Assembly: GCA_944358455.1 (NCBI GenBank)
Contig: CALVRE010000014.1
Coordinates: 1-38,626, forward strand
DNA length: 38,626 nucleotides
Origin: an uncultured Bacilli bacterium
Lineage (GTDB): Bacteria > Bacillota_I > Bacilli_A > RF39 > UBA660
Direction: 5' to 3'
In this document: one piece after another, positions 4,311 to 19,899 of the stretch
Position numbering within the stretch: the first letter of the stretch is position 1
Layout: every line of letters starts with the position of its first letter
Made by a program: the position numbers and the translations under genes
Notes under the pieces: generated by a model
The model's database searches: none
What the model was told of the DNA's origin: nothing
The model's input: the letters and a program-made list of their open reading frames with translations, nothing else

Positions 4311-4748
4311 ATGAAAGAATATCCAAATTATCGTGTTTCTGTCGAAATATTATTAAAAAAAGAAAATTGTATTTTTTTAGCGAAGCGTGCGGACAATTGT
4401 CAAGTTGCTCCTGGCAAATGGAATGTCCCTGCTGGTAAGGTGAAATATACAGAGATTCCGACTGATGCAGTAGTGAGAGAAGCGAAAGAAGAAACAAAAT
4501 TAGATGTTGAAATTATAGAAGAAGTAGGGGTTAGAGCATATTCCTTTGAATTAGATGGTAAGAAAGCTTATCGTTTGGTATATACGTATTTAGTAAAAAA
4601 TTTAAATGATGAAAAAGAACCAGTATTAGATGAAGAACATTCTTGTGGTGAATGGGTTTCATTAGATGAATTAGATAATGAAAAATACCAGAATATGGAC
4701 TTGATATTAAAAAAATACATTAAGAAAGTGTTAGGCTCAAATTATTAG
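4311..4748 (+). CDS. Nudix hydrolase
   Basis: A 145-residue Nudix protein. The Nudix box G-x5-E-x7-REAKEE is complete in GKVKYTE...VVREAKEETKLD (about residues 42-65). It is preceded by the characteristic GKWNVPAG strand-turn. The family cleaves nucleoside diphosphates linked to another group (NDP-X) using Mg2+. This small single-domain form could act on a nucleotide sugar, ADP-ribose, an oxidised nucleotide or a pathway intermediate. The sequence does not say which. It is the last gene of unit A, 4 bases after the oxidoreductase. A gap with a promoter for unit B follows. Confidence 0.85.
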   Translation: MKEYPNYRVSVEILLKKENCIFLAKRADNCQVAPGKWNVPAGKVKYTEIPTDAVVREAKEETKLDVEIIEEVGVRAYSFELDGKKAYRLVYTYLVKNLNDEKEPVLDEEHSCGEWVSLDELDNEKYQNMDLILKKYIKKVLGSNY

Positions 4749-4949: not shown

Positions 4950-5846
4950 ATGTATAATATTGATTTGAATTTATATAAAGTTTTCTTGATTGTATATGAA
5001 ACTAAAAAGTTGTCAAAGGCTGCTGAGAAATTATATGTATCACAGCCGGCTATTAGTTATAATATTAAAGAGCTAGAAAAACAATTAGATGTCCAATTAT
5101 TTTATCGTACAACTAGAGGTGTGGAGCCTACTATTGAAGGACAAGAATTGTATTTTTATATTTCTAATGCTTTTAATATTATTCGAAATGGTGAAAATGC
5201 ATTAGGTGAGATACATAATTTAAAACATGGAATTATACGTTTGGGGACTCCCTCACACATCGGCATTTTTTATTTAACAAAATATATTCAAGCATTTAGA
5301 AAAATGCATCCTGGAATTAAGTTTGAAATTGTTAGTATGTCTACGAAAGATATGGTGTCTATGTTAGAAACTCGAAATTTAGATTTGATTGTTGATAGTC
5401 TTCCAATCATTTCTAATCGATTTGAAATTGACATTTTAAACTTGACACAATTAAATAATTGCTTTGCTTGTACAAAAAAAGTGCAAGAAGAATATCATAT
5501 TAGTAAAATTAAAGATTTGGAATATGCTCCGCTTATTATACCTAGTGAAACTTCATCTATTCGCCAAAAGTTAGAAAAGTTTATAGCTAACGAACATACA
5601 AAATTGCAACCGATTATTGAGGCTTGGACAACAGAAATGATGTTAGAAATGGTTCGTAAGGACATGGGCATAGGTTATTTTATAGAAGATGTGATTACTA
5701 GTCAAAAAGATAGTGATGATTTTGTTATATTAGACTTAAAGGTATCTCTACCTAAAGTAGATATCTCTGTTGCTTATGTAAGAGATTTCTTGACCACTGC
5801 AGCTAAAAGTTTTATCGAGTTTTTGAGTAAGAATACAAGGGAGTGA
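4950..5846 (+). CDS. LysR-family transcription regulator
   Basis: A 298-residue protein with the standard LysR layout. The N-terminal winged helix-turn-helix is about residues 4-63, with LSKAAEKLYVSQPAISYNIKELEKQL. A periplasmic-binding-like effector domain follows (about 90-295). LysR proteins usually sense a small metabolite of the pathway they control. It is the first gene after the leader/terminator, and the radical SAM gene begins with GTG 4 bases after its stop, sharing the AAGGGAG ribosome site at its 3' end. It is thus co-transcribed with its likely targets rather than divergent from them, which is less common for LysR regulators. Autoregulation and regulation of unit A are plausible inferences. 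Confidence 0.9.
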   Translation: MYNIDLNLYKVFLIVYETKKLSKAAEKLYVSQPAISYNIKELEKQLDVQLFYRTTRGVEPTIEGQELYFYISNAFNIIRNGENALGEIHNLKHGIIRLGTPSHIGIFYLTKYIQAFRKMHPGIKFEIVSMSTKDMVSMLETRNLDLIVDSLPIISNRFEIDILNLTQLNNCFACTKKVQEEYHISKIKDLEYAPLIIPSETSSIRQKLEKFIANEHTKLQPIIEAWTTEMMLEMVRKDMGIGYFIEDVITSQKDSDDFVILDLKVSLPKVDISVAYVRDFLTTAAKSFIEFLSKNTRE

Positions 5847-5850
5847 TAAA

Positions 5851-7503
5851 GTGGAATTATACTTATTATCAGATGAAGTTCAAATTACTGACGAAGATTA
5901 TCAAATAAGAAAAGATTTAACTGATGAATTTTTGAAATTACCTATAGATTTTCTTTCTAAAATGAGGCATTTTCAACCACAAATTGGGTGTCCAAATATG
6001 TGTAGTTTTTGTAGTAAGTTTTCGCACAAAAGAATTGAATATTGGAATGATAAAACGCTTAGAAACGTTATTGCTTCTCTAAAATATACAGCTTTTCATT
6101 ATCGAAGAGAAAAACCATTATTGGTATGGGATCGTAATGAGCATAGAACTGGGGTTGTATTCCCTTATTTAGATAATGATATAGGGAATTATTATTATTT
6201 GGATGAATATATTTATTTAATGTATAAAGAGTTAGGAGTCAAAACAAGGATTTCAACAGTTAGTTATAGTCATTTTAATAGGAGTTTAAATTTGATGCAT
6301 GAAAGAATTAATCATGAACCTTTGATCGATTATTTGGCTGGTGTACGTTTGTCTTTAGCTCCATACGGAAGAGTTTGGGAATGTTGTTCTCCCGAACAAT
6401 ATTCGATGGATGAATATTGTCGTGATATTTCTAATTTCTTAAAAATATATAGACCATATTACGAAAAATACGGAGCTGGTAATCGAAGAATGTGTGTAGA
6501 AATTCGATATGAACCATTGGTCGAAAATTGTCCTGTATACAAATTTAACTGTCAAAATCATTTTGTTCTTGTTTGTAATAATTATATGTTTTATTCGGTA
6601 GATGAAAATATTTGTTTTTCGGTTGCAAATATTAAAGATGAGGAAATTCATTCTATTGAATTGACAGAAGAACCTGTTAAGTTTTATCAAATTGATATTT
6701 CTTCATCATGTACTAGTATGAAAGTAGCTAAACAACTAGCAGAAGATTTATGTTTTGATGATTTGATTTATAAAAATATAGTAGATGTGTATCTGTTTGA
6801 AAATAGCGATGGCATTTATTATGCAATTAATCCAAAACTTACCCCAATTGGTAATTACGGTTTGAATATTTATCCTCATACAAATAGAAGGAATATTTCT
6901 GGCTATATTGTTACAGAACGTTTTTTACTGAATGCTATGGCAGAGCAAAAACAAAAGTATGGATTATCCTTGCGTGATAAATTTTCAACTGCCAGTTGGG
7001 ATGATGTAAAGGAAACGATTTGCATTTGTAAAATGAATGCCCAAAAATATTTAGTGAAAGGAAAGTTAGAAAAAGCCACTTATATTATGAAGAATGTGAT
7101 TCCTATTATAGAGATTTACAGCAAAGCGTTAAAAGATGCCAATTATGAACCTTCTTGTTTTTTTGATCGTGAATTTACGATTGATACAGGCATTATTTGT
7201 AATCTTGGTCGTGCCCTTTCTAAATTTAAAGGAATTACGAAGAATTTTAATGAACCATTAACACCCAATCACGAACGGAATTATGGAAAGTATCGCAGTA
7301 TGATGAAAAAAGAAAATTATGCATGGCGACTTAGCTGTGGATTTGATGATACTCTTTTGGTCGAAAAACTCGATTTGTTTAATACTGCTTCTATTAATGG
7401 ACAGGCTTCGTTTCGTCAAGTTATAGAAGGATTTTCTTTGAATCAAAAAATAAATTATGAAGAAAAAACAAAAAACTATTTAGTACCAGGAGAAAGGAGA
7501 TAA
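5851..7503 (+). CDS. Radical SAM protein of unknown reaction
   Basis: A 550-residue protein with GCPNMCSFCSK, giving the CxxxCxxC iron-sulfur motif at Cys47, Cys51 and Cys54. Such clusters cleave S-adenosylmethionine to start radical reactions. Beta/alpha barrel-like sequence follows to about residue 250 (GVKTRISTVS, LAGVRLSLAPYG). The next roughly 300 residues match nothing I recognise. Several later Cys (about 178-179 and 227-243) could bind a further cluster, but the spacing fits no standard SPASM pattern I can name. The GTG start has a good ribosome site. It lies between lysR and the NADAR fusion with gaps of 4 and 2 bases, so it is firmly operonic. The product is unknown. Confidence 0.75.
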   Translation: MELYLLSDEVQITDEDYQIRKDLTDEFLKLPIDFLSKMRHFQPQIGCPNMCSFCSKFSHKRIEYWNDKTLRNVIASLKYTAFHYRREKPLLVWDRNEHRTGVVFPYLDNDIGNYYYLDEYIYLMYKELGVKTRISTVSYSHFNRSLNLMHERINHEPLIDYLAGVRLSLAPYGRVWECCSPEQYSMDEYCRDISNFLKIYRPYYEKYGAGNRRMCVEIRYEPLVENCPVYKFNCQNHFVLVCNNYMFYSVDENICFSVANIKDEEIHSIELTEEPVKFYQIDISSSCTSMKVAKQLAEDLCFDDLIYKNIVDVYLFENSDGIYYAINPKLTPIGNYGLNIYPHTNRRNISGYIVTERFLLNAMAEQKQKYGLSLRDKFSTASWDDVKETICICKMNAQKYLVKGKLEKATYIMKNVIPIIEIYSKALKDANYEPSCFFDREFTIDTGIICNLGRALSKFKGITKNFNEPLTPNHERNYGKYRSMMKKENYAWRLSCGFDDTLLVEKLDLFNTASINGQASFRQVIEGFSLNQKINYEEKTKNYLVPGERR

Positions 7504-7505
7504 TA

Positions 7506-8813
7506 ATGGCAATTTATTTTTATAAAGAATTTGGAGAACTAGGCTATTTGGCTAATTATTCGAATCATGGATTTGAAAAAAATGGTGTATATTATAAAAC
7601 AGTGGAACACTATTATCAAAGTCAGAAATTTTTGGATTTAGAACTAAGAAAAAAAGTCATTGAGGCGGAAACGCCTAAAGAAGCATCTAATATTGGTAGA
7701 GATCGCAATCATCCGCTACGAAAAAATTGGAAAGAAATGAAACAACAAGTTATGTTGGAAGGTGTACTTGCTAAATTTCGATCACATCCAACTATTTTAC
7801 AAAAATTAATTGAAACAAGAAACGAGGAAATTATTGAAAATACCATTGATGAATATTATTGGGGATGTGGTAAGGATAAAACAGGAGAAAATAATTTTGG
7901 AAAAATTTTATGTCATGCGCGTGAAATTTTAAAGCAAGAATTATTTCATCGTATTTTTGATTGGGAAGCGTTAAAAAAACTGTCTCATGTTTATGTGATT
8001 GGTCATATGCATCCTGACGCAGATTCTATTTTTTCTAGTTATTTGTTATCCAACATTTTTTGTTATTTTGGTGTAAAAGCGAGTTTTTCTATATTAGCGA
8101 ATGATACTTATGCGAATGATGATAAAAAGTTAATCGATGATTTTTTGCCAGAAAGTCCAATTATTATTACGGAATCAGATGATAAAGTTTTTTTTCTTGT
8201 AGATCATAATGATTATGATCAATCAGTAGGAAATAAGTGTATTATTGGTAGTATCGATCATCATGTATATTCTGGAAAGGTTTCGAATACTTTTGAGATC
8301 GAGTATGCAAGTACAGGTTTGTTAATTTTTGATCTATTTAAAGATATTTATCCTTTTTCGGATTTAGAAAAACAGTTAGTTGCTTATACAGTGTTGGCCG
8401 ATACTGAATACTTAGTTAGTACGCGTTATCGAGAGAGTGATGCATCTCTTTATCAAAGTTTGAATGTTATGATCGATTTGAAAAATTTTCAAAAAAAGTA
8501 TTTTATGACAACTGATTTTAATAGGTCAGTAGAAGAAAATTTTTTCCAAAATTATAAAAAGTACGTACGTGATATCGAAATTAATAAAGTGTCTTTCAAA
8601 GTATATCGGGAAGATGAGCGTTATTTACATGATTATCTTATCCATTTAAAAACATTATCAGGTACGTGGCTGTTTATTTGGGCATATTATGATTATCCAT
8701 ATAGTGAAGTATACCTATGGCAAGATGGAAAATTAACACAAATCATTTATGATTATACTGTGACAAGCGCAGTATTAACAATTAAAGATCTAGAGAAGAG
8801 GAGATTGATATAG
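7506..8813 (+). CDS. NADAR / family II pyrophosphatase-like fusion
   Basis: A 435-residue two-domain protein. Residues 2-143 are a NADAR (YbiA-like) domain: FKEFGELGYLANYSN-type start, TVEHYYQSQKF (Glu34), KNWKEMKQQVM, LAKFRSHP and YWGCGKDKTGENNFGKIL. NADAR proteins cleave N-glycosidic bonds in riboflavin-pathway intermediates or ADP-ribosylated guanine. Residues 160-430 resemble the Mn-dependent family II pyrophosphatase (DHH): GHMHPDADS (His167, Asp171, Asp173), LVDHNDYDQS (Asp233), IDHH (251-253) and VLADT (Asp299), so metal ligands are kept. The C-terminal lobe is short and lacks the SRKK substrate motif of true pyrophosphatases, ending EKRRLI, so the substrate probably differs. ATG follows the radical SAM stop by 2 bases. 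Confidence 0.8.
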   Translation: MAIYFYKEFGELGYLANYSNHGFEKNGVYYKTVEHYYQSQKFLDLELRKKVIEAETPKEASNIGRDRNHPLRKNWKEMKQQVMLEGVLAKFRSHPTILQKLIETRNEEIIENTIDEYYWGCGKDKTGENNFGKILCHAREILKQELFHRIFDWEALKKLSHVYVIGHMHPDADSIFSSYLLSNIFCYFGVKASFSILANDTYANDDKKLIDDFLPESPIIITESDDKVFFLVDHNDYDQSVGNKCIIGSIDHHVYSGKVSNTFEIEYASTGLLIFDLFKDIYPFSDLEKQLVAYTVLADTEYLVSTRYRESDASLYQSLNVMIDLKNFQKKYFMTTDFNRSVEENFFQNYKKYVRDIEINKVSFKVYREDERYLHDYLIHLKTLSGTWLFIWAYYDYPYSEVYLWQDGKLTQIIYDYTVTSAVLTIKDLEKRRLI

Positions 8814-9982
8814 AAGCATTTGTTATTAATTGTGGTAGCTCTACGATTAAATTTTCTGGTTTTGATGTTAAAACAGATAGATTGTTATATCGCGGGACTC
8901 TTCTTAAATCTGATTATAATACGATTACGCTTAAGCTTAAATATTCAGATGGTACTCAACAAATGGTGTCAGAAATTAATCAAAATGATTTTGAACAATT
9001 GTTCAAAAAACTTTTCTATTCAAAGGAAATAATTATTATTCATCGTATTGTGAACGGTTTAAATAAGTTTATTAATCCCGTTTTTTTAAATAAACAAGTT
9101 GTACAGGAATTAGATCGACTTGGCGAATATGCACCATGCCATAATCCGTTTGCATTACAAATAATACATTATTTGCAAAGTGAATTTCCCGATATACCAA
9201 ATTTTGCTGTTTTTGATACAAGTTTTCATAATACTATTCCAGAAGAAAGTTATAAATATGATATTCCTAAAGAATTAGTATAAAAATATCATATTAGAAA
9301 ATATGGATTTCACGGAATTTCTTATCAGTATGTTTTAAATCGATTAGCGATAATACAAAATAAAAGGATTGATCAAATAAATACAGTATTATGTCATTTT
9401 GGTGGTGGAAGTAGTATGTGTTTGATTAAAAATGGAAAGTCGATTGATACAACAATGGGTTTTATGCCAATCGGTGGTTTTATGATGCCTTCACGAATAT
9501 CTGATTTGGATCCTTTTATAATTCCTTTTCTGATGTCTAAAAGCAATTTAACTTATTTACAAGTTTTAGAATATTTTAACCAAAATAGTGGATATTATGC
9601 TTGGACTGGAGTTCAAGATGAAAAGGAAATCTGTCGTCTAGCAGAGCAAGGAAATAGAGAGGCTATACTCGCCCGAAAAAAGGCGGATTCTATCTTTAAA
9701 CAAACTTTAGGTGGTTATTTTTTTCGTAATCCTAATGTTGATTCAATTGTATTTACGGGGGGAATGGGAAGTAAAAATCATCGTCAAAGAGAAATGTTTT
9801 TGAATGAGCTTGAAAATTATCATATTTTATTAGACAAAAATAAAAATGCTCAAATATATGACTGTGAGGCAACCATACATCAAAAGGAATCTAATATTAA
9901 AATTTATGTAATTCCAACAAATGAAGAATTACAAATGTTAAAAGAAGTGAAAAAATTTTTCTTTGTTAAAAAAGTAAATTAA
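8804..9982 (+). pseudogene. Second acetate-kinase-family gene, broken
   Basis: The same frame encodes a full-length kinase homologue. It has FVINCGSSTIKF at the start, IHRIVNGL, APCHNP, FAVFDTSFH, KYHIRKYGFHGISY, CHFGGGSS, TMGFMPIGGFMMPSR, FTGGMGSKN and VIPTNEEL. Two defects are visible. First, TAA at 9281-9283 interrupts ELV*KYHIRKYGFHG where the paralogue at 1699 has LYEKYKIRKYGFHG, so GAA to TAA is the simplest event. Second, no ATG, GTG or TTG lies in frame between the upstream stop (8783) and the phosphate-loop motif. Only ATT (8804) or ATA (8810) follow the ribosome site AGAGGAG (8796-8802). GMGSKN replaces GIGEN as in the intact copy. Otherwise it is well preserved, so decay is recent, unless this is read-through or a sequencing error. 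It overlaps the fusion gene's stop. Confidence 0.8.
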
Positions 9983-10225: not shown

Positions 10226-11659
10226 ATGATGAGTATCGATATTTTGTTAGCTAAAGTAAAAGAATATAATGAAAAGGAAATAGAGAAAGTTAAGAAAGCC
10301 TATGAGTTTGCTGAACGTCTTCATAAAGGACAAACAAGACAGAGTGGAGAACCTTATATTGTTCATCCTTTAAATGTTGCCTATATTTTGGCTGAAATGC
10401 ATGCTGATGCTGATACTTTATGTGCAGGACTTTTACATGATACTTTAGAGGATACGGATACAACGAAAGAAGAAATTGCTAATTTATTTAATCCAGAAGT
10501 TGCGAAATTGGTAGACGGGGCAACCAAGATAAGAAGAATGAATTTTTCAAGTAAATCGGCACAGAATTATGCAAACACAAGAAAAATTATTACGAGTTTA
10601 ACAGAAGATGTACGAATTATCATTATTAAATTGGCTGATCGTTTGCACAATATGAGAACATTACAATTCAAAAGTGAGTTCAAACAAAAGGAAAATGCAT
10701 TAGAAACGATGGAGATATTTGTTCCTTTAGCATATCAAATTGGAGCTTATCGAATTAAGCAAGAATTAGAAGACTTATCTTTTCGCTATTTAAAACCTGA
10801 TATTTATGATCACATTTCAGCGAAAAGGACGATTATTGAACGAGAAAGTGAACAATGCGTAAAAGATATGTTAGAAAAGATCCATGCTGTGTTATGTGAT
10901 AAACAAATTCCAAATGAAATAAAAGTTCGTACGAAGAACATCTATGGTATTTATAAAAAAATTAGTAGAGGTGATAAAATAAGCGAGATTCATGATTTAT
11001 TATCATTGAAGATATTAGTGGATGAAATTGATGATTGTTATTTGGCGTTACGTCCCATTCATGCAATGTATCATCCGGTTAATCGTAAATTTAAAGATTA
11101 TATTGCGAATCCAAAGACGAATATGTATCAATCGCTTCATACGACGGTTTTTGGATTGGATGATCGTTTGGTTCAATTACAATTACGTACACATGATATG
11201 GATAAAGTTGCTTCTTTTGGCTTGGCGACCTATTGGGATATCAACAAGGGTAGAGCACGTGAAGTCATGCAAGAAGAATTGAAAAGTAAATTTCAATTTT
11301 ATCAGTCATTATTGGAAATCAATGAGGTTTTTAGAGATAATCAAGCTTTTATTTATCAAGCCAAGAACGAAATATTTGCAGATAAAGTATATGTTTATAC
11401 TCCCAAAGGTGATGTGATGGAACTACCGAAAGGAGCGACAGCCATTGATTTTGCTTATAAAATTCATACGGATGTTGGAAATACTATGGTAGGAGCAATT
11501 GTCAATGATCGATATGTCCCGGTTAATTACGTTCTTCAAAATAACGATCGCGTTAAAATAGTTACCGACGAATTGTCGTATGGTGCACGTGATAGTTGGG
11601 AAGATATGGCCAAAACGACATATGCAAAAAGAAAAATTAGAGAGTTTAAGACGAAGTAA
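10226..11659 (+). CDS. Short RSH (ppGpp) protein, hydrolase intact, synthetase altered
   Basis: A 477-residue RelA/SpoT homologue that controls (p)ppGpp. Hydrolase (HD) domain 20-170: RQSGEPYIVHP with His47, LLHDTLED (His71, Asp72, Glu75, Asp76) and KLADRLHNM (Asp138) are all present. Synthetase domain 230-345: RTKNIYGIYKK, IHDLLSLK (Asp257), KFKDYIANPK and YQSLHTT are present. The catalytic Glu of EIQIRT is Gln317 in VQLQLRT, and AAHW is ATYW. A TGS domain (about 388-455) follows. The ACT and zinc-finger regions of roughly 700-residue long RSH enzymes are absent. Predicted net role is ppGpp hydrolysis. GGAGGTG precedes ATG ATG, so the start could be 10229. A 190-nt leader with a small ORF precedes it. 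Confidence 0.85.
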   Translation: MMSIDILLAKVKEYNEKEIEKVKKAYEFAERLHKGQTRQSGEPYIVHPLNVAYILAEMHADADTLCAGLLHDTLEDTDTTKEEIANLFNPEVAKLVDGATKIRRMNFSSKSAQNYANTRKIITSLTEDVRIIIIKLADRLHNMRTLQFKSEFKQKENALETMEIFVPLAYQIGAYRIKQELEDLSFRYLKPDIYDHISAKRTIIERESEQCVKDMLEKIHAVLCDKQIPNEIKVRTKNIYGIYKKISRGDKISEIHDLLSLKILVDEIDDCYLALRPIHAMYHPVNRKFKDYIANPKTNMYQSLHTTVFGLDDRLVQLQLRTHDMDKVASFGLATYWDINKGRAREVMQEELKSKFQFYQSLLEINEVFRDNQAFIYQAKNEIFADKVYVYTPKGDVMELPKGATAIDFAYKIHTDVGNTMVGAIVNDRYVPVNYVLQNNDRVKIVTDELSYGARDSWEDMAKTTYAKRKIREFKTK

Positions 11660-14826: not shown

Positions 14827-15168
14827 GTGAAAAATAGGCGTGGACAAGCATTAGTAGAATTTATCATAGTATTACCTGTTTTGATGTTCTCAATTATGGG
14901 GGTAGTTGATTTTGGTAACATCATTTATGAAAAGTATCGATTGGAAAATGAAATAGATTATATAGCTGATTTATATTTACAAGGGAAAGAAAATGATATT
15001 TTGAGCTATGCGGCTAGAAAAAAGATGACGGTTCATTATCATCAAACAGAAGAGATGGTAACGATTGATTTAGAAAAACGTGTTTCGATCGTGACGCCAG
15101 GGTTGAGTCAAATTTTAGAAAATCCTTATTTTGTGAAGGTGAGTCGAGTGATCTATGATGAGGAATAA
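14827..15168 (+). CDS. TadE-like pseudopilin
   Basis: A 113-residue protein with GTG start. It has the TadE-type prepilin signature RRGQALVEFIIVLPVLMFSIMGVVDFG: basic leader, Gly, then Glu5-Phe6 and a hydrophobic helix. The remaining 80 residues form a small extracytoplasmic domain. TadE-like minor pilins help prime Flp pilus assembly after processing by the prepilin peptidase. It is the first gene of the assembly operon and its 3' end overlaps the next gene by 14 bases. Confidence 0.85.
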   Translation: MKNRRGQALVEFIIVLPVLMFSIMGVVDFGNIIYEKYRLENEIDYIADLYLQGKENDILSYAARKKMTVHYHQTEEMVTIDLEKRVSIVTPGLSQILENPYFVKVSRVIYDEE

Positions 15169-15547
15169 TAAAGGTCAAACGCTTGTTACCTTTCTTTTGA
15201 TTTTGCCTTTTCTTTTGATTCTGTTTGGGTTTACCGTTGATTATGGAATGCTCAGTATTGAAAAGAGAAAAATAGATAACGTCGTGAAAGACAATATCGA
15301 ATATGGGTTACAACATATCGAAGAAGATAAGACGATATGGGAACAGAATATTAGAATTGCAATTCGACAAAATATTGAGGATATTGAAGTGTTAGAAATT
15401 GTTTATGGTGAGAATTATGTCGATATTTTATTATCCAAGCATTATTCTAGTCTATATAGTATTATGATGGGACAAAGTATTTATAAAATTGAGAGTCATT
15501 ATCGTGGGTATATCGATGATGGTAAAATTACATTAGTAAAAGAATAG
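15155..15547 (+). CDS. TadF/TadG-like minor pilin
   Basis: A 130-residue protein starting MMRNNKGQTLVTFLLILPFLLILFGFTVDYG, the N-terminal pattern of TadE/TadF/TadG proteins. Val4-Thr5 replaces the usual Glu5, so peptidase processing may differ. It has a single N-terminal helix and a small exposed domain. It is translationally coupled to the preceding gene by overlap. It is far shorter than Gram-negative TadG, which carries a von Willebrand domain. The naming is by position and N-terminus only. Confidence 0.75.
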   Translation: MMRNNKGQTLVTFLLILPFLLILFGFTVDYGMLSIEKRKIDNVVKDNIEYGLQHIEEDKTIWEQNIRIAIRQNIEDIEVLEIVYGENYVDILLSKHYSSLYSIMMGQSIYKIESHYRGYIDDGKITLVKE

Positions 15548-15556
15548 AGGTGTCTT

Positions 15557-16330
15557 ATGGCAGTGAAACAAGGAAAGATTTTTACCGTTACTTCTATGAA
15601 AGGTGGAACCGGTAAGACGACAACCGTTCTTAATTTAGCGGGAATCTTCAAACAGATGGGAAAGAAAGTACTGATTGTCGATATGGATTTTTATGGTTCG
15701 GCTGTTGCGGCCAGTTTAAATTTAGATGGTGATCGTAGTATTTATAATGTTGTCGATGATTTGACCAATAATCGCTTTGATTATATCGACAATTATGTTC
15801 TTTCTTACGATGCTGATATCGATGTTTTAGCAGCACCAAAAGATCCTAGAATTGCAACGAAGATTGGAAGTAAGTACTTGGGTATTATTTTGACAAAAGC
15901 ATCTATGAAATACGATGTTCTTTTGGTGGATACCAATTATGTGATCGATGAAAATAAATTGATTATATTAGATCACAGTGATGAAATTGTCTATTTGATG
16001 ACAAATGATCCGATTGATATCAAAAATATGAAATCGATGATATCGATCTATAAAGATATGGATAAGAAAAATTATAAGATTGTTTTAAATGAAGCAATTG
16101 ATCACAATCGTTCTTATTTTAATAAGTACGATATCAAAAATATTATGAAGGATAATGTTGATTATACGATTCCATCTTCTTTCCATATTAAATCGATTGA
16201 CAAATTTGTCTTAGATGGAAAAATTATGACTTTAGATAAAACGGTTCAGCTTAAAAATAAGAAAGCAATGAAGAATTTTGATCTTATTGCAAAGGCTTTA
16301 CTTCGTGAAAAGAAAGAAAAGAAAAAATAA
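15557..16330 (+). CDS. TadZ/CpaE-like ParA-family ATPase
   Basis: A 257-residue MinD/ParA-type ATPase: deviant Walker A KGGTGKTT (about 16-23), VLIVDMDFYGSAVA switch region and VLLVDTNYV Walker B. In Tad loci this class (TadZ or CpaE) positions the pilus machine at the pole or membrane. The atypical receiver domain found at the N-terminus of many CpaE proteins is absent, so it is the minimal form. The tail is very Lys-rich. It lies 9 bases after the minor pilin and 11 before the ATPase gene. Confidence 0.85.
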   Translation: MAVKQGKIFTVTSMKGGTGKTTTVLNLAGIFKQMGKKVLIVDMDFYGSAVAASLNLDGDRSIYNVVDDLTNNRFDYIDNYVLSYDADIDVLAAPKDPRIATKIGSKYLGIILTKASMKYDVLLVDTNYVIDENKLIILDHSDEIVYLMTNDPIDIKNMKSMISIYKDMDKKNYKIVLNEAIDHNRSYFNKYDIKNIMKDNVDYTIPSSFHIKSIDKFVLDGKIMTLDKTVQLKNKKAMKNFDLIAKALLREKKEKKK

Positions 16331-16341
16331 GAAGGTGTCTT

Positions 16342-17670
16342 ATGGCTAAGAAATTTGTAGAAGAGTTTAATGTACAGGTTACCGAACCTACGATTCGTCA
16401 AGTGGCAGATTATGAAGCGTTTCCCAATAAAGTATTATTGGATGAATTGCGAAGTAAAATTATCGAAAATTTGATTGATAATAATGTGGCAAGTAAAGGA
16501 ACGATCAATGATTTTGTCAAACGAGAGATCGATAAGACGATCGAAGGATACAATTTATCCAATGTCGAAAGAAGTTATATTTACAATTTGATCGATAATG
16601 AAATTAATGGTTATGGACCTTTATCAGAATTATTGGAAGATAAGGAAATTTCGGAAATTATGGTGAATGGAACAGATGAGATTTATATCGAAATCGATGG
16701 TAAGTTGCTTCGCGATGAAAGTGTTTCATTTATCAATGAGGATCATATTGTAAGAACGATTCAAAGAATGATTCAACCTTTAGGAAGAACGATCGATACT
16801 GCTAATCCAATGGTTGATGCGAGACTTTCGGATGGATCTCGTTTAAATGCTGTTTTGCCACCTTTGTCTTTGAATGGACCTATTTTGACGATTCGTAAAT
16901 TTAAAGAAGATCTAGCGAATATTGACGACTTTTTAAGAGGTGGGACACTTACCCCTTATATGGCACGTTTTCTTGAAGCTTGCGTTCAAGCTAAACTCAA
17001 TATTATTATTTGTGGGGGAACGGGTAGTGGTAAGACGACACTTCTGAATGTATTATCTTCTTTTATTGGGGATGATGAACGTATTATTACGATTGAGGAT
17101 GCAGCGGAATTAAAACTTCATCAACGTCATGTCGTTAGTTTGGAAACACGTTTGGTAAATTATGAAGGCCAAGGGGAAGTAACAATTCGTGATCTTGTCA
17201 TTAATTCTCTTCGTATGCGACCTGATCGTATTATCGTTGGTGAAGTACGTGGCAAAGAGGCTTTCGATATGTTGCAGGCTATGAATACTGGTCATACCGG
17301 ATCTCTTACGACGATGCATGCCAATGGACCACATGATGCTTTAAATCGTTTGGAGACGATGGTATTGATGGCAGGAATGGAAATCCCTGTACGTGCGATT
17401 CGTGAATATATTGAGAATGCGATTAATATTGTCGTTCAAATCAGTCGTTTATCTGATGGAAAACGTAAAATTACAAGTATTAGTGAAGTGACTGGTTTTC
17501 ATGGTGATATGATTGAATTAAAAGAAATCTTTGCTTTTCATCAAACGGGTCTTACGGATACAGGAGAAGTCGATGGAGAATTTATTCTCTATGATTATGT
17601 GCCAAAAGTATATGAGATTATAAAAGCTCATGGTATTGATACTTTAAAAGATATTTTCGAAAAACATTAG
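16342..17670 (+). CDS. tadA: TadA/CpaF pilus assembly ATPase
   Basis: A 442-residue secretion ATPase of the CpaF/TadA group that powers pilus extension. An N-terminal alpha-helical domain precedes Walker [11 protein letters not shown] (224-233). The Asp box TIEDAAEL, Walker B IIVGEVRG with Glu301 and His box [13 protein letters not shown] (317-329) all follow. Length and motifs are normal and the gene looks intact. The ribosome site AAGGTG precedes ATG 16342. The tadB-like gene begins 11 bases after the stop. Confidence 0.95.
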
Positions 17671-17681
17671 AGAGGTGAATT

Positions 17682-19190
17682 ATGGAAGAAAGGAATGGAT
17701 TTAGTATTTATGAAAATACAACACCGACAAATCAAGATATTGCGGTTACTTATACCCCAGATTCTTCCATAACGAGGTATCAGTATCGTGTTGTCAAAGA
17801 TGGGGTAGAAGAGGATTATGTCGAAATAGAAAATGCGGATCCAACGACGATCTATTTAACTTCAACTGGTAATTATCAAATTATTGTTCAAGTTTATCAG
17901 CAAAATGGTCGTATGGAGACGGTACGTAGTGGTGTTTTCAAAATCGATAAAGAAAAACCGATTATCGACGTTGGGGAACGCAACATCGAAATGCAACTAG
18001 GGTCTACTTTAGAGCCTTTAGCAGGTATTACGGTGTATGATAGACAAGATGGAGATTTAATTAGTCAAGTCACGACGAATTATGACGAACTAGATTTTTC
18101 GACCAAAGGAATTAAAACGTTGACTTATACGGTAAGTGATCAAGCTGGTAATACGACGAGTGAAAGTATTTATATTCATGTGGTTGGTTCTACCGAAAGT
18201 GAACTTTTAATCGTTCAATTAGGAATCATTTTCATTTTAGGAATCGTCATTATCCTTACACTGTTTTATCAAAAGAGTATGCGTCGTGAAAAAAGAATTG
18301 GTAAGTTCGGAATTGAACCTTTAGAGGATAACACACCATCTTTGATCGATCAAGCGAATGGACATTATAATAAATTCATTCAGCGTTTAAAAAAGGGACT
18401 TGTCAAATCGGTCTTTTTGCAAAAGTATGCCAAACGATATGAAAAATATGTGGGAGTGATCGATAATGGGTATGAGTCAGGACTCGATTTTGTGATCAAC
18501 AAGTTCATCGTATCCCTTATCTTTGTACTGATTGCCGTATTTTCGAAGACGATACAATATCAATTACTCAGCCTTTACGAAGTTTGTATTCCTATGTTAT
18601 TTGGGTTCTTTATGCCGGATTTTATTTATATCTATCGCTATCGAAGATATCGTGAACAATTGGAAAATGACTTGTTACAAGCGATTATCGTCATGAATAA
18701 TGCTTTTAAGTCTGGACGTAGTATTACGCAAGCAATCGATCTTGTTACGAAAGAATTGGATGGTCCGATTGCCAGTGAGTTTAAAAAGATGTCAGTCGAG
18801 TTATCATTCGGCTTATCGTTAGATGATGTATTTAAGCGTTTTAGTGATCGTATTCAGTTAGAAGAGGTTGCTTATATGACTGCTTCCTTATCGATTTTAA
18901 ATAAAACAGGTGGTAATATTATTCAAGTTTTTTCTTCGATCGAAAAGTCACTTTTCAATAAGAAAAAGTTGAAATTAGAACTTTTAGCTTTAACAGGAAG
19001 CTCTAAAATTATCATGTATGTACTCTTTTGTGTACCAATTTTGTTTATTGTTTTCATCAGTATTTTAAATCCATCTTATTTTGATCCGTTCTTTACGACA
19101 CAAATTGGTTGGATTATGATGATTTTAATTTTAATTATGTATATTAGTTATATCATGATTGTAAGAAGAGTTATGAGAGTAAGGATGTGA
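17682..19190 (+). CDS. tadB: TadB-like platform protein with N-terminal Ig-like region
   Basis: A 502-residue protein. The C-terminal part (about 200-502) is a TadB-type T2SF membrane platform: hydrophobic pair at 270-315, LLQAIIVMNNAFKSGRSITQAID, MSVELSFGLSLDDVFKRF, and a membrane pair at 440-497. In place of the usual short N-terminus there are about 172 residues of extracellular character. A beta-rich stretch (15-92) is followed by an Ig-like domain of the DUF5011 type (95-168) with DVGERNIEMQLGSTL and VSDQAGNTT. A transmembrane helix follows (174-197). No signal peptide precedes it. The ribosome site GAGAGGTG fixes the start, with 11 bases to tadA, so there is no room for a longer N-terminus. 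Confidence 0.85.
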   Translation: MEERNGFSIYENTTPTNQDIAVTYTPDSSITRYQYRVVKDGVEEDYVEIENADPTTIYLTSTGNYQIIVQVYQQNGRMETVRSGVFKIDKEKPIIDVGERNIEMQLGSTLEPLAGITVYDRQDGDLISQVTTNYDELDFSTKGIKTLTYTVSDQAGNTTSESIYIHVVGSTESELLIVQLGIIFILGIVIILTLFYQKSMRREKRIGKFGIEPLEDNTPSLIDQANGHYNKFIQRLKKGLVKSVFLQKYAKRYEKYVGVIDNGYESGLDFVINKFIVSLIFVLIAVFSKTIQYQLLSLYEVCIPMLFGFFMPDFIYIYRYRRYREQLENDLLQAIIVMNNAFKSGRSITQAIDLVTKELDGPIASEFKKMSVELSFGLSLDDVFKRFSDRIQLEEVAYMTASLSILNKTGGNIIQVFSSIEKSLFNKKKLKLELLALTGSSKIIMYVLFCVPILFIVFISILNPSYFDPFFTTQIGWIMMILILIMYISYIMIVRRVMRVRM

Positions 19191-19194
19191 GAAA

Positions 19195-19899
19195 ATGGCT
19201 CGAAAAAAGCACCAAATGGTAAGAAAAATTTACCGTGAATGTGATATTGTCAAATATGATGCAGAAATTGAAATGCTTGGGAATGAAGCTAGATTTGATG
19301 CGATTGCGTTCTTAAATGCGCGTCTTCTTACGACGATGATTGTCTTTTTGCTCGTATTATACAATACGAAAGTAGGGTATATTTATGCACCGTTTGTCTC
19401 GATCTTATATTATTATCTCTTTCATTATTTCCTACTTTCAAGGCCTCTGAAAAAACGCGCTAAGCGGTTAGATCATCAAGCTTTATATTTTTTTGAAATT
19501 TTAACGCTTACTTTAGAGTCGGGAAGAAACCTAGAAAATTCTTTAGAAGTTACTTGTTTCAATGTCGATAGTGAGATTTCGAATGAGTTTCGAAGAGCTC
19601 TTTTTGACATGAAGTTTGGTAAAACATTAATCGAAGCATTAGAGGATATGAAGCGAAGAATTCCATCTGAGACGATTAACAATATCATTCTCAATATTAC
19701 ACAGACGGACGTGTTTGGCAGTAGTATATTGGATACGATGTATAATCAAATCGACTTTTTAAGAGATAAACAAGTGTTAGAAATCAAGGGAGAAATCAAT
19801 AAAATTCCTAATAAAATAAGTGTTATTTCCGTTTTATTTATCGTTCCGTTGATTCTCTTGTTAATATTAGGACCATTTTTTATCAGTTTTCTAGGGTAA
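19195..19899 (+). CDS. tadC: TadC-like platform protein
   Basis: A 234-residue T2SF-family membrane protein that pairs with TadB as the platform on which the TadA ATPase acts. Two helices near residues 42-85 are followed by a cytoplasmic core with LTLTLESGRNLENSLEVTCFNVDSE and ALFDMKFGKTLIEALEDM. A C-terminal helix ends at residue 234. It is slightly short but complete in motifs. The gap to tadB is 4 bases. It is the last gene of the tad operon; a new promoter for murC follows. Confidence 0.9.
   Translation: MARKKHQMVRKIYRECDIVKYDAEIEMLGNEARFDAIAFLNARLLTTMIVFLLVLYNTKVGYIYAPFVSILYYYLFHYFLLSRPLKKRAKRLDHQALYFFEILTLTLESGRNLENSLEVTCFNVDSEISNEFRRALFDMKFGKTLIEALEDMKRRIPSETINNIILNITQTDVFGSSILDTMYNQIDFLRDKQVLEIKGEINKIPNKISVISVLFIVPLILLLILGPFFISFLG

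Follow-up and report, generated by a model that had tools for sequence, protein, structure and literature searches.

The window analysed here is a 38,626-nucleotide stretch of DNA (contig CALVRE010000014.1) from an uncultured Bacilli bacterium with a small genome, referred to below as G000. It contains an operon headed by a regulator gene and including a gene in which a NADAR domain is joined to a DHH domain. The features of interest are:

4950 to 5846, + strand: LysR-type regulator, first gene of the operon (Pfam; conserved gene order)
5851 to 7503, + strand: probable radical SAM (rSAM) protein, 550 aa, GTG start, with a CxxxCxxC motif (GCPNMCSFC)
7506 to 8813, + strand: NADAR-DHH fusion protein, 435 aa, ATG start; the same fusion occurs in G006, G902, G991 and G1100
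7512 to 7940, + strand: NADAR domain of the fusion, residues about 3-145 (Pfam, TIGR02464, PDB match, alignment to E. coli YbiA)
7983 to 8810, + strand: PpaC-like DHH phosphoesterase domain of the fusion, residues 160-435 (Pfam, alignment, fold comparison)

The genes of the operon are separated by gaps of 4 and 2 nt, and a Shine-Dalgarno-like sequence, AGAAAGGAG, lies immediately 5' of the fusion ATG. Acetate-kinase genes flank the operon on both sides, an arrangement that was not seen beside the operon elsewhere in a comparison of ORF starts only, and they were discounted. The acetate-kinase-like gene right 3' of the fusion (8802-9982) has no standard start codon at the expected N-terminus and contains an in-frame TAA at 9281-9283, so that it is probably decayed, or else reflects an assembly error; the second (1597-2919) is intact. 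Elsewhere in the window, a RelA/SpoT protein of 477 aa (10226-11659) matches positions 1-449 of the 687 in TIGR00691 and ends after the TGS domain, without the usual C-terminal part. A Tad/Flp-type pilus cluster lies at 14827-19899, and one T2SSF protein within it (17682-19190) also has a bacterial Ig-like domain.

The first-pass annotation, made from the window sequence alone, had described the gene at 7506-8813 as a complete NADAR domain joined to a DHH domain, that is, two hydrolase domains in one protein. Profile searches agree: Pfam PF08719 matches residues 4-142 (E 2.4e-30, 106.4 bits, gathering cut-off 35.1), PF01368 matches residues 161-282 (E 4.4e-10, 40.4 bits, cut-off 28.1), and the catalytic residues of both domains are intact. 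The predicted structure also recovers both folds, although at a mean pLDDT of 60.7; confidence is highest in the DHH core (mostly 65-94), lower in the NADAR domain (55-75 beyond residue 20) and below 50 in the last 100 residues. When this model was used as a Foldseek query, pyrophosphatases ranked first and YbiA was found at rank 50 (E 3.9e-6).

Because four further genomes of the same family encode it, the fusion is neither a chance event nor an assembly artefact; it is real and conserved, and it is a new architecture. We found no description of a NADAR-DHH fusion, or of a NADAR-radical SAM pair, in the CC-licensed PMC literature. Where PMC7824862 deals with NADAR and DHH in jumbo phages, in the sections drawn on here, the two are treated separately.

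To survey the architecture, a profile built from six DHH sequences was run against 386 genomes of the window's family. Some match was found in 294 of the 386, many of them in frames of 540-570 aa, the size that ordinary pyrophosphatases should have, and a strong match (>250 bits) in 19. Among the 30 loci looked at (six seed loci and 24 others), the fusion was found in five of the 386 genomes, and stand-alone DHH relatives occur without NADAR. Pfam NADAR was detected in 18 of 395 class genomes, where only one other frame exceeds 400 aa; that 477-aa frame (L048) has other sequence in front of its NADAR domain and no DHH, and was rejected as a fusion. A Clostridial match to residues 1-281 (L031) was likewise rejected, its NADAR ending in TAG and being followed by an in-frame GreA-like gene. 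The search of viral_contigs returned no relatives of the fusion protein. For the DHH half, the phage search gave no relatives and the plasmid search gave one, a stand-alone DHH protein (L067, 8007-8975) on the Alkaliphilus plasmid pB6464; this plasmid is rich in small hypothetical genes, and the DHH gene lies about 3.6 kb from one encoding a nucleoside 2-deoxyribosyltransferase domain.

NADAR enzymes are widespread, and a physiological substrate is known for few of them. In addition to its Pfam match, the window NADAR scores 115.6 bits against TIGR02464, the riboflavin-intermediate N-glycosidase model (cut-off 73.7), and matches PDB 2b3w (E. coli YbiA) with E 1.3e-27. We aligned the window protein to E. 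coli YbiA and took the roles of residues in ADP-ribose binding or catalysis from the portion of PMC11543638 that defines them for NADARs. This places the active-site set at E34, K41, R65, W75, K79, E111, E116 and W119. The same residues are intact in the G1100, G991 and G902 fusions, except that W75 is Phe in all three. E111, at the position of YbiA E125, is the state characteristic of the YbiA subfamily. Judged from these residues, the NADAR half most likely works as a ribosyl N-glycosidase. The exception is the fusion of G006, in which K41, W75 and the YWG..G.N segment have been lost and the Pfam score (33.9 bits) is below the cut-off of 35.1.

All four intact fusions pass the TIGR02464 cut-off, and this, together with the YbiA-type Glu, would fit a role in riboflavin damage control, in which the NADAR half would hydrolyse reactive phosphorylated riboflavin intermediates in the manner of YbiA and the DHH half would dephosphorylate or depyrophosphorylate the same intermediates. 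We consider this unlikely, as none of the 26 ORFs of the window scanned with Pfam is a riboflavin gene and, in six genomes, NADARs of this type follow an rSAM gene rather than riboflavin genes.

A role in biological conflict was also considered. In vitro, guanosine-ADPr served as a substrate for each of the four NADAR types, from E. coli and phage, that were assayed in PMC11125620. The NADAR half might strip guanine, whether in nucleic acid or in small signals, of its ADP-ribose, which the DHH half would then split, as a form of immunity or as an antitoxin. The PADLOC candidate model PDC-M42C does match the NADAR half (E 1.3e-15; no named anti-phage system was matched), as does the NCBIfam anti-phage NADAR model DS32_2, far below its cut-off (57.8 of 240), and a NUDIX gene lies at 4311-4748. 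However, there is no ADP-ribosyltransferase among the 26 Pfam-scanned ORFs, the domain has neither the DarT1-linked N-terminal extension nor Asp at E111, a LysR gene heads all four rSAM-bearing fusion loci, and none of six rSAM family members matches a PADLOC model. A conflict function thus seems improbable to us.

The DHH half contains the metal-ligand motifs listed in the first-pass annotation (GHMHPDADS at residue 166, VDHND at 232, IDHH at 250 and LADT at 297), and the equivalent of Lys205 lies in NYKKY (349). The DHH site numbers follow those of B. subtilis PpaC. The profile of six DHH relatives matches the family II pyrophosphatase 1k23 (E 2.2e-19), and the predicted model aligns with 4rpa over the N-terminal core (Z 19.8, 176 aligned, rmsd 2.8). 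An alignment of four PpaCs with 29 relatives shows that each of the 33 rows has kept the Lys205 equivalent and all seven metal-site/DHH positions.

The C-terminal region is different. In PpaC, Arg295 and Lys296 of the C-terminal SRKKQ signature bind substrate (PMC11210485, in the section concerned with this signature). When the window DHH half was aligned with PpaC, SRKK was absent, the tail reading TVTSAVLTIKDLEKRRLI; across the alignment, SRKK is confined to the four PpaCs and missing from all 29 other rows. The C-terminal lobe is also shortened: the window domain (residues 160-435) has 276 aa, and the canonical L031 PpaC has 307. Pfam finds no DHHA2 domain in the fusion protein, and NCBIfam PRK05427 falls short of its cut-off (47 of 283 bits). 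A tail Arg is kept in all 22 relatives outside the fusion clade described below, 21 times as SR and once as PR, and is absent in all seven fusion-clade rows. Since aligners disagree on how the sisters' SR is placed against PpaC SRKK, we limit the claim to the absence of SRKK and the loss of the tail Arg in the fusion clade. Eight positions past the last metal Asp of the window protein lies a basic residue, R307 (in STRY); as read from the alignment, every one of the 29 relatives has R or K in this column and the four PpaCs do not, and the residue may replace the lost tail contacts.

Because family II pyrophosphatases are the closest relatives in both fold and sequence and the metal site is intact, the DHH half could be a surplus or housekeeping pyrophosphatase with an incidental fusion partner. 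We consider this very improbable. Besides the missing SRKK and the low PRK05427 score, each of the five fusion genomes encodes a separate DHHA2-type protein of 543-566 aa. Such a protein was present in five of the seven genomes searched and was not found in G025 and G016. Our data argue against an ordinary pyrophosphatase; the DHH half is probably a metal-dependent phosphoesterase that cleaves a phosphoester or phosphoanhydride bond in a nucleotide-like compound, and not pyrophosphate. The altered DHH domain proposed in the first-pass annotation is borne out to this extent. SRKK was already absent before the fusion, as the motif is missing from the 22 relatives outside the fusion clade as well, and what is particular to the fusion clade is the loss of the tail Arg. 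A pyrophosphatase fold that keeps its metal site and loses its phosphate-binding tail in two steps represents a clean case of functional drift.

In the tree of the 33 DHH rows, the five fusions and the proteins of G025 and G953 form a single clade (support 100/97), with G025 and G953 nested inside it and the stand-alone protein of G016 as its sister (98/96). One fusion event therefore gave rise to a clade of seven. Every member has kept the catalytic residues of the DHH domain. The NADAR domain is degenerate in G006 and reduced to a short N-terminal stub in G025 and G953. The score of the G025 stub against the G006 NADAR exceeded 2000 of 2000 shuffles, and that of the G953 stub 1997 of 2000. 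Eight further comparisons of a stub with a NADAR gave modest scores in two cases, both for G025 (equalled by 6 and by 41 of 2000 shuffles), and no significance in the other six. It should be noted that the G953 DHH domain is joined to a GNAT acetyltransferase domain (L080, 1405-2853), and that the G025 gene sits among consecutive genes for HD, HAD and ASCH domains (L035, 6389-9293).

The rSAM-like gene, on which the first-pass annotation is silent, carries most of the functional signal at the locus. The co-directional, closely spaced order LysR, rSAM-like gene, NADAR-DHH is found in four of the five fusion genomes (G000, G991, G902 and G1100). In G006 the fusion directly follows LysR, and the rSAM gene was not found in that genome. 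In two Clostridial loci, L031 and L032, a stand-alone NADAR follows the rSAM gene, so that the rSAM gene is directly upstream of NADAR in all six rSAM genomes. The Clostridial cassettes (L031, 2867-6004; L032, 5764-9448) consist of thymidylate-kinase-like, rSAM, NADAR and GreA-like genes, the two outer ones being assigned with Pfam in L032 and by resemblance in L031; the L032 cassette also has a gene with a sub-threshold HEPN match.

The cluster motif CxxxCxxC is invariant in all six rSAM members, and the product of 5851-7503 is probably a radical SAM enzyme on the strength of this motif. Pfam Radical_SAM (PF04055) matches one of the six, with E 0.0038, and no NCBIfam or PADLOC model matched the family. 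Structure comparison gave a best Z of 4.9, among unrelated rows of similar Z; NifB, TYW1, viperin and DesII appear at Z <5 with a low-confidence rSAM model (mean pLDDT 60.8). With the same model, Foldseek gave no match at E <= 0.001, and the rSAM profile had four matches among solved structures, the best at E 0.18, none of them to a radical SAM protein. Phages and viral_contigs held no rSAM relatives; in mobile DNA, a partial match on a Streptomyces plasmid covers rSAM residues 411-495 and adjoins a NUDIX gene.

Searches for the rSAM gene in 147 relatives, 392 genomes of the phylum and 250 genomes of the family of G590, which holds a second NADAR besides, returned only already-known genomes and, from the phylum search, one 62-residue match with two stops. 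The rSAM genes of G902, G991 and G1100 had not been listed by those searches and surfaced through the DHH profile run on the 386 genomes; recent gain of rSAM by the window genome alone was dropped as an explanation on account of these three. Across the 26 genomes searched with both profiles, rSAM is present in six, and the same six have an intact NADAR of the rSAM-linked type. NADAR of any kind occurs in eight, namely these six, G006 (degenerate) and G037 (another NADAR type); G025 and G953 have neither gene. The rSAM-linked NADARs group together (88/93) in a NADAR tree of 20 rows, from which several NADAR loci without an ORF call were left out.

All three fusion-clade members with a degenerate or stub NADAR also lack rSAM. 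The association between intact rSAM-type NADAR and rSAM gives Fisher values of 9e-5 across 24 genomes of the family and 0.029 for the clade by itself, which are not strict probabilities because the genomes are related and the losses amount to about two independent events. This co-loss suggests that the NADAR half is tied to rSAM, and that the job of the DHH half is separable. NADAR thus looks to need rSAM to stay useful, and the DHH half does not. Since DHH was retained after NADAR was lost, the DHH half works without NADAR, and the first-pass proposal that both halves act on the same small molecule is not supported in that form.

Estimates of dN/dS between G991 and G902 were 0.17 for rSAM, 0.05 for LysR, 0.085 for NADAR and 0.35 for DHH, and the DHH domains of G025 and G953, both without NADAR, gave 0.29; all are rough values, dS being 0.7-1.1. 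For the G991-G902 pair, purifying selection is seen on NADAR, rSAM and DHH alike. The DHH half might be less critical, as it evolves faster than NADAR. It could be argued that two adjacent genes of unrelated function were simply joined by loss of a stop codon, with no common chemistry: NADAR and rSAM are paired in Clostridia without a DHH of the fusion type, DHH stands alone in relatives, and in three fusion-clade genomes NADAR later decayed and DHH stayed. Such a neutral fusion strikes us as quite improbable, given that the fusion is kept in five genomes of four genera and that its functional parts are under purifying selection where measured.

We favour a three-gene metabolic operon in which an rSAM-linked NADAR glycosidase is fused to a repurposed DHH phosphoesterase, the two having separable activities on a nucleotide-like substrate; as a complete account, we rate this an even bet. 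The LysR regulator would control the operon. The NADAR half would cut a glycosidic bond in the substrate, product or a damaged by-product of the rSAM enzyme, the favoured target being a nucleotide-like small molecule that rSAM handles. The DHH half, derived from the family II pyrophosphatase fold with its phosphate-binding tail replaced, would remove phosphate, in an order of steps on which we would put little weight, and the fusion would probably serve channelling or co-expression. The thymidylate-kinase-like gene of the Clostridial cassettes fits a nucleotide theme. So does a distant cousin of the DHH half that carries a C-terminal LOG-family (PF03641) domain (L095, 1462-2943, in G1107), LOG proteins being another group of nucleotide N-glycosidases. 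Of 195 genomes, one encodes this DHH-LOG fusion, and its assembly is 68% complete; the fusion was set aside as a recurrent theme and kept as a lead.

A more specific and speculative version of the metabolic operon is that the rSAM-NADAR pair forms the core of an undescribed modified-nucleotide pathway. Here rSAM would remodel a nucleotide and NADAR would cut its base-sugar bond, the compound being a signal, a toxic analogue or a cofactor precursor. In the window lineage, the repurposed pyrophosphatase would add a step that removes phosphate from the same compound. The nucleotide kinase and GreA-like transcript-cleavage factor that the Clostridial cassettes add would be expected if the compound stalls RNA polymerase. 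Because NADAR decays where rSAM is missing, a likely pathway partner has been named and the NADAR substrate should be findable. The rSAM link points strongly to the partner of a family of enzymes that is poorly understood.

Compared with known systems, the locus has parts in common with several. It shares the NADAR domain with the DarT1-NADAR toxin-antitoxin system, but the window domain starts at residue 3, with no N-terminal extension, has Glu111 and not Asp, and has no DarT or ART partner among the 26 scanned ORFs. NrnA, GdpP and DhhP, whose substrates are pApA, cyclic dinucleotides or short RNA and most of which have a DHHA1 domain, share the DHH core (structural Z about 17-18), although the fusion DHH is closer in sequence to PpaC. 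With the DHH-DHHA2 protein PpaC, the DHH half has in common the N-terminal core fold, all metal ligands and Lys205; it differs in lacking SRKKQ and a DHHA2 match, in being about 30 residues shorter and in having the extra R307. The NADAR half is most like E. coli YbiA (TIGR02464), sharing the whole domain, the active-site residues, the 2b3w match and a score above the model cut-off, with Phe in place of W75 in three of the four intact fusions. Whereas ybiA has dinG and rhlE as neighbours, the window NADAR is fused to DHH and shares an operon with an rSAM-like gene and a LysR regulator.
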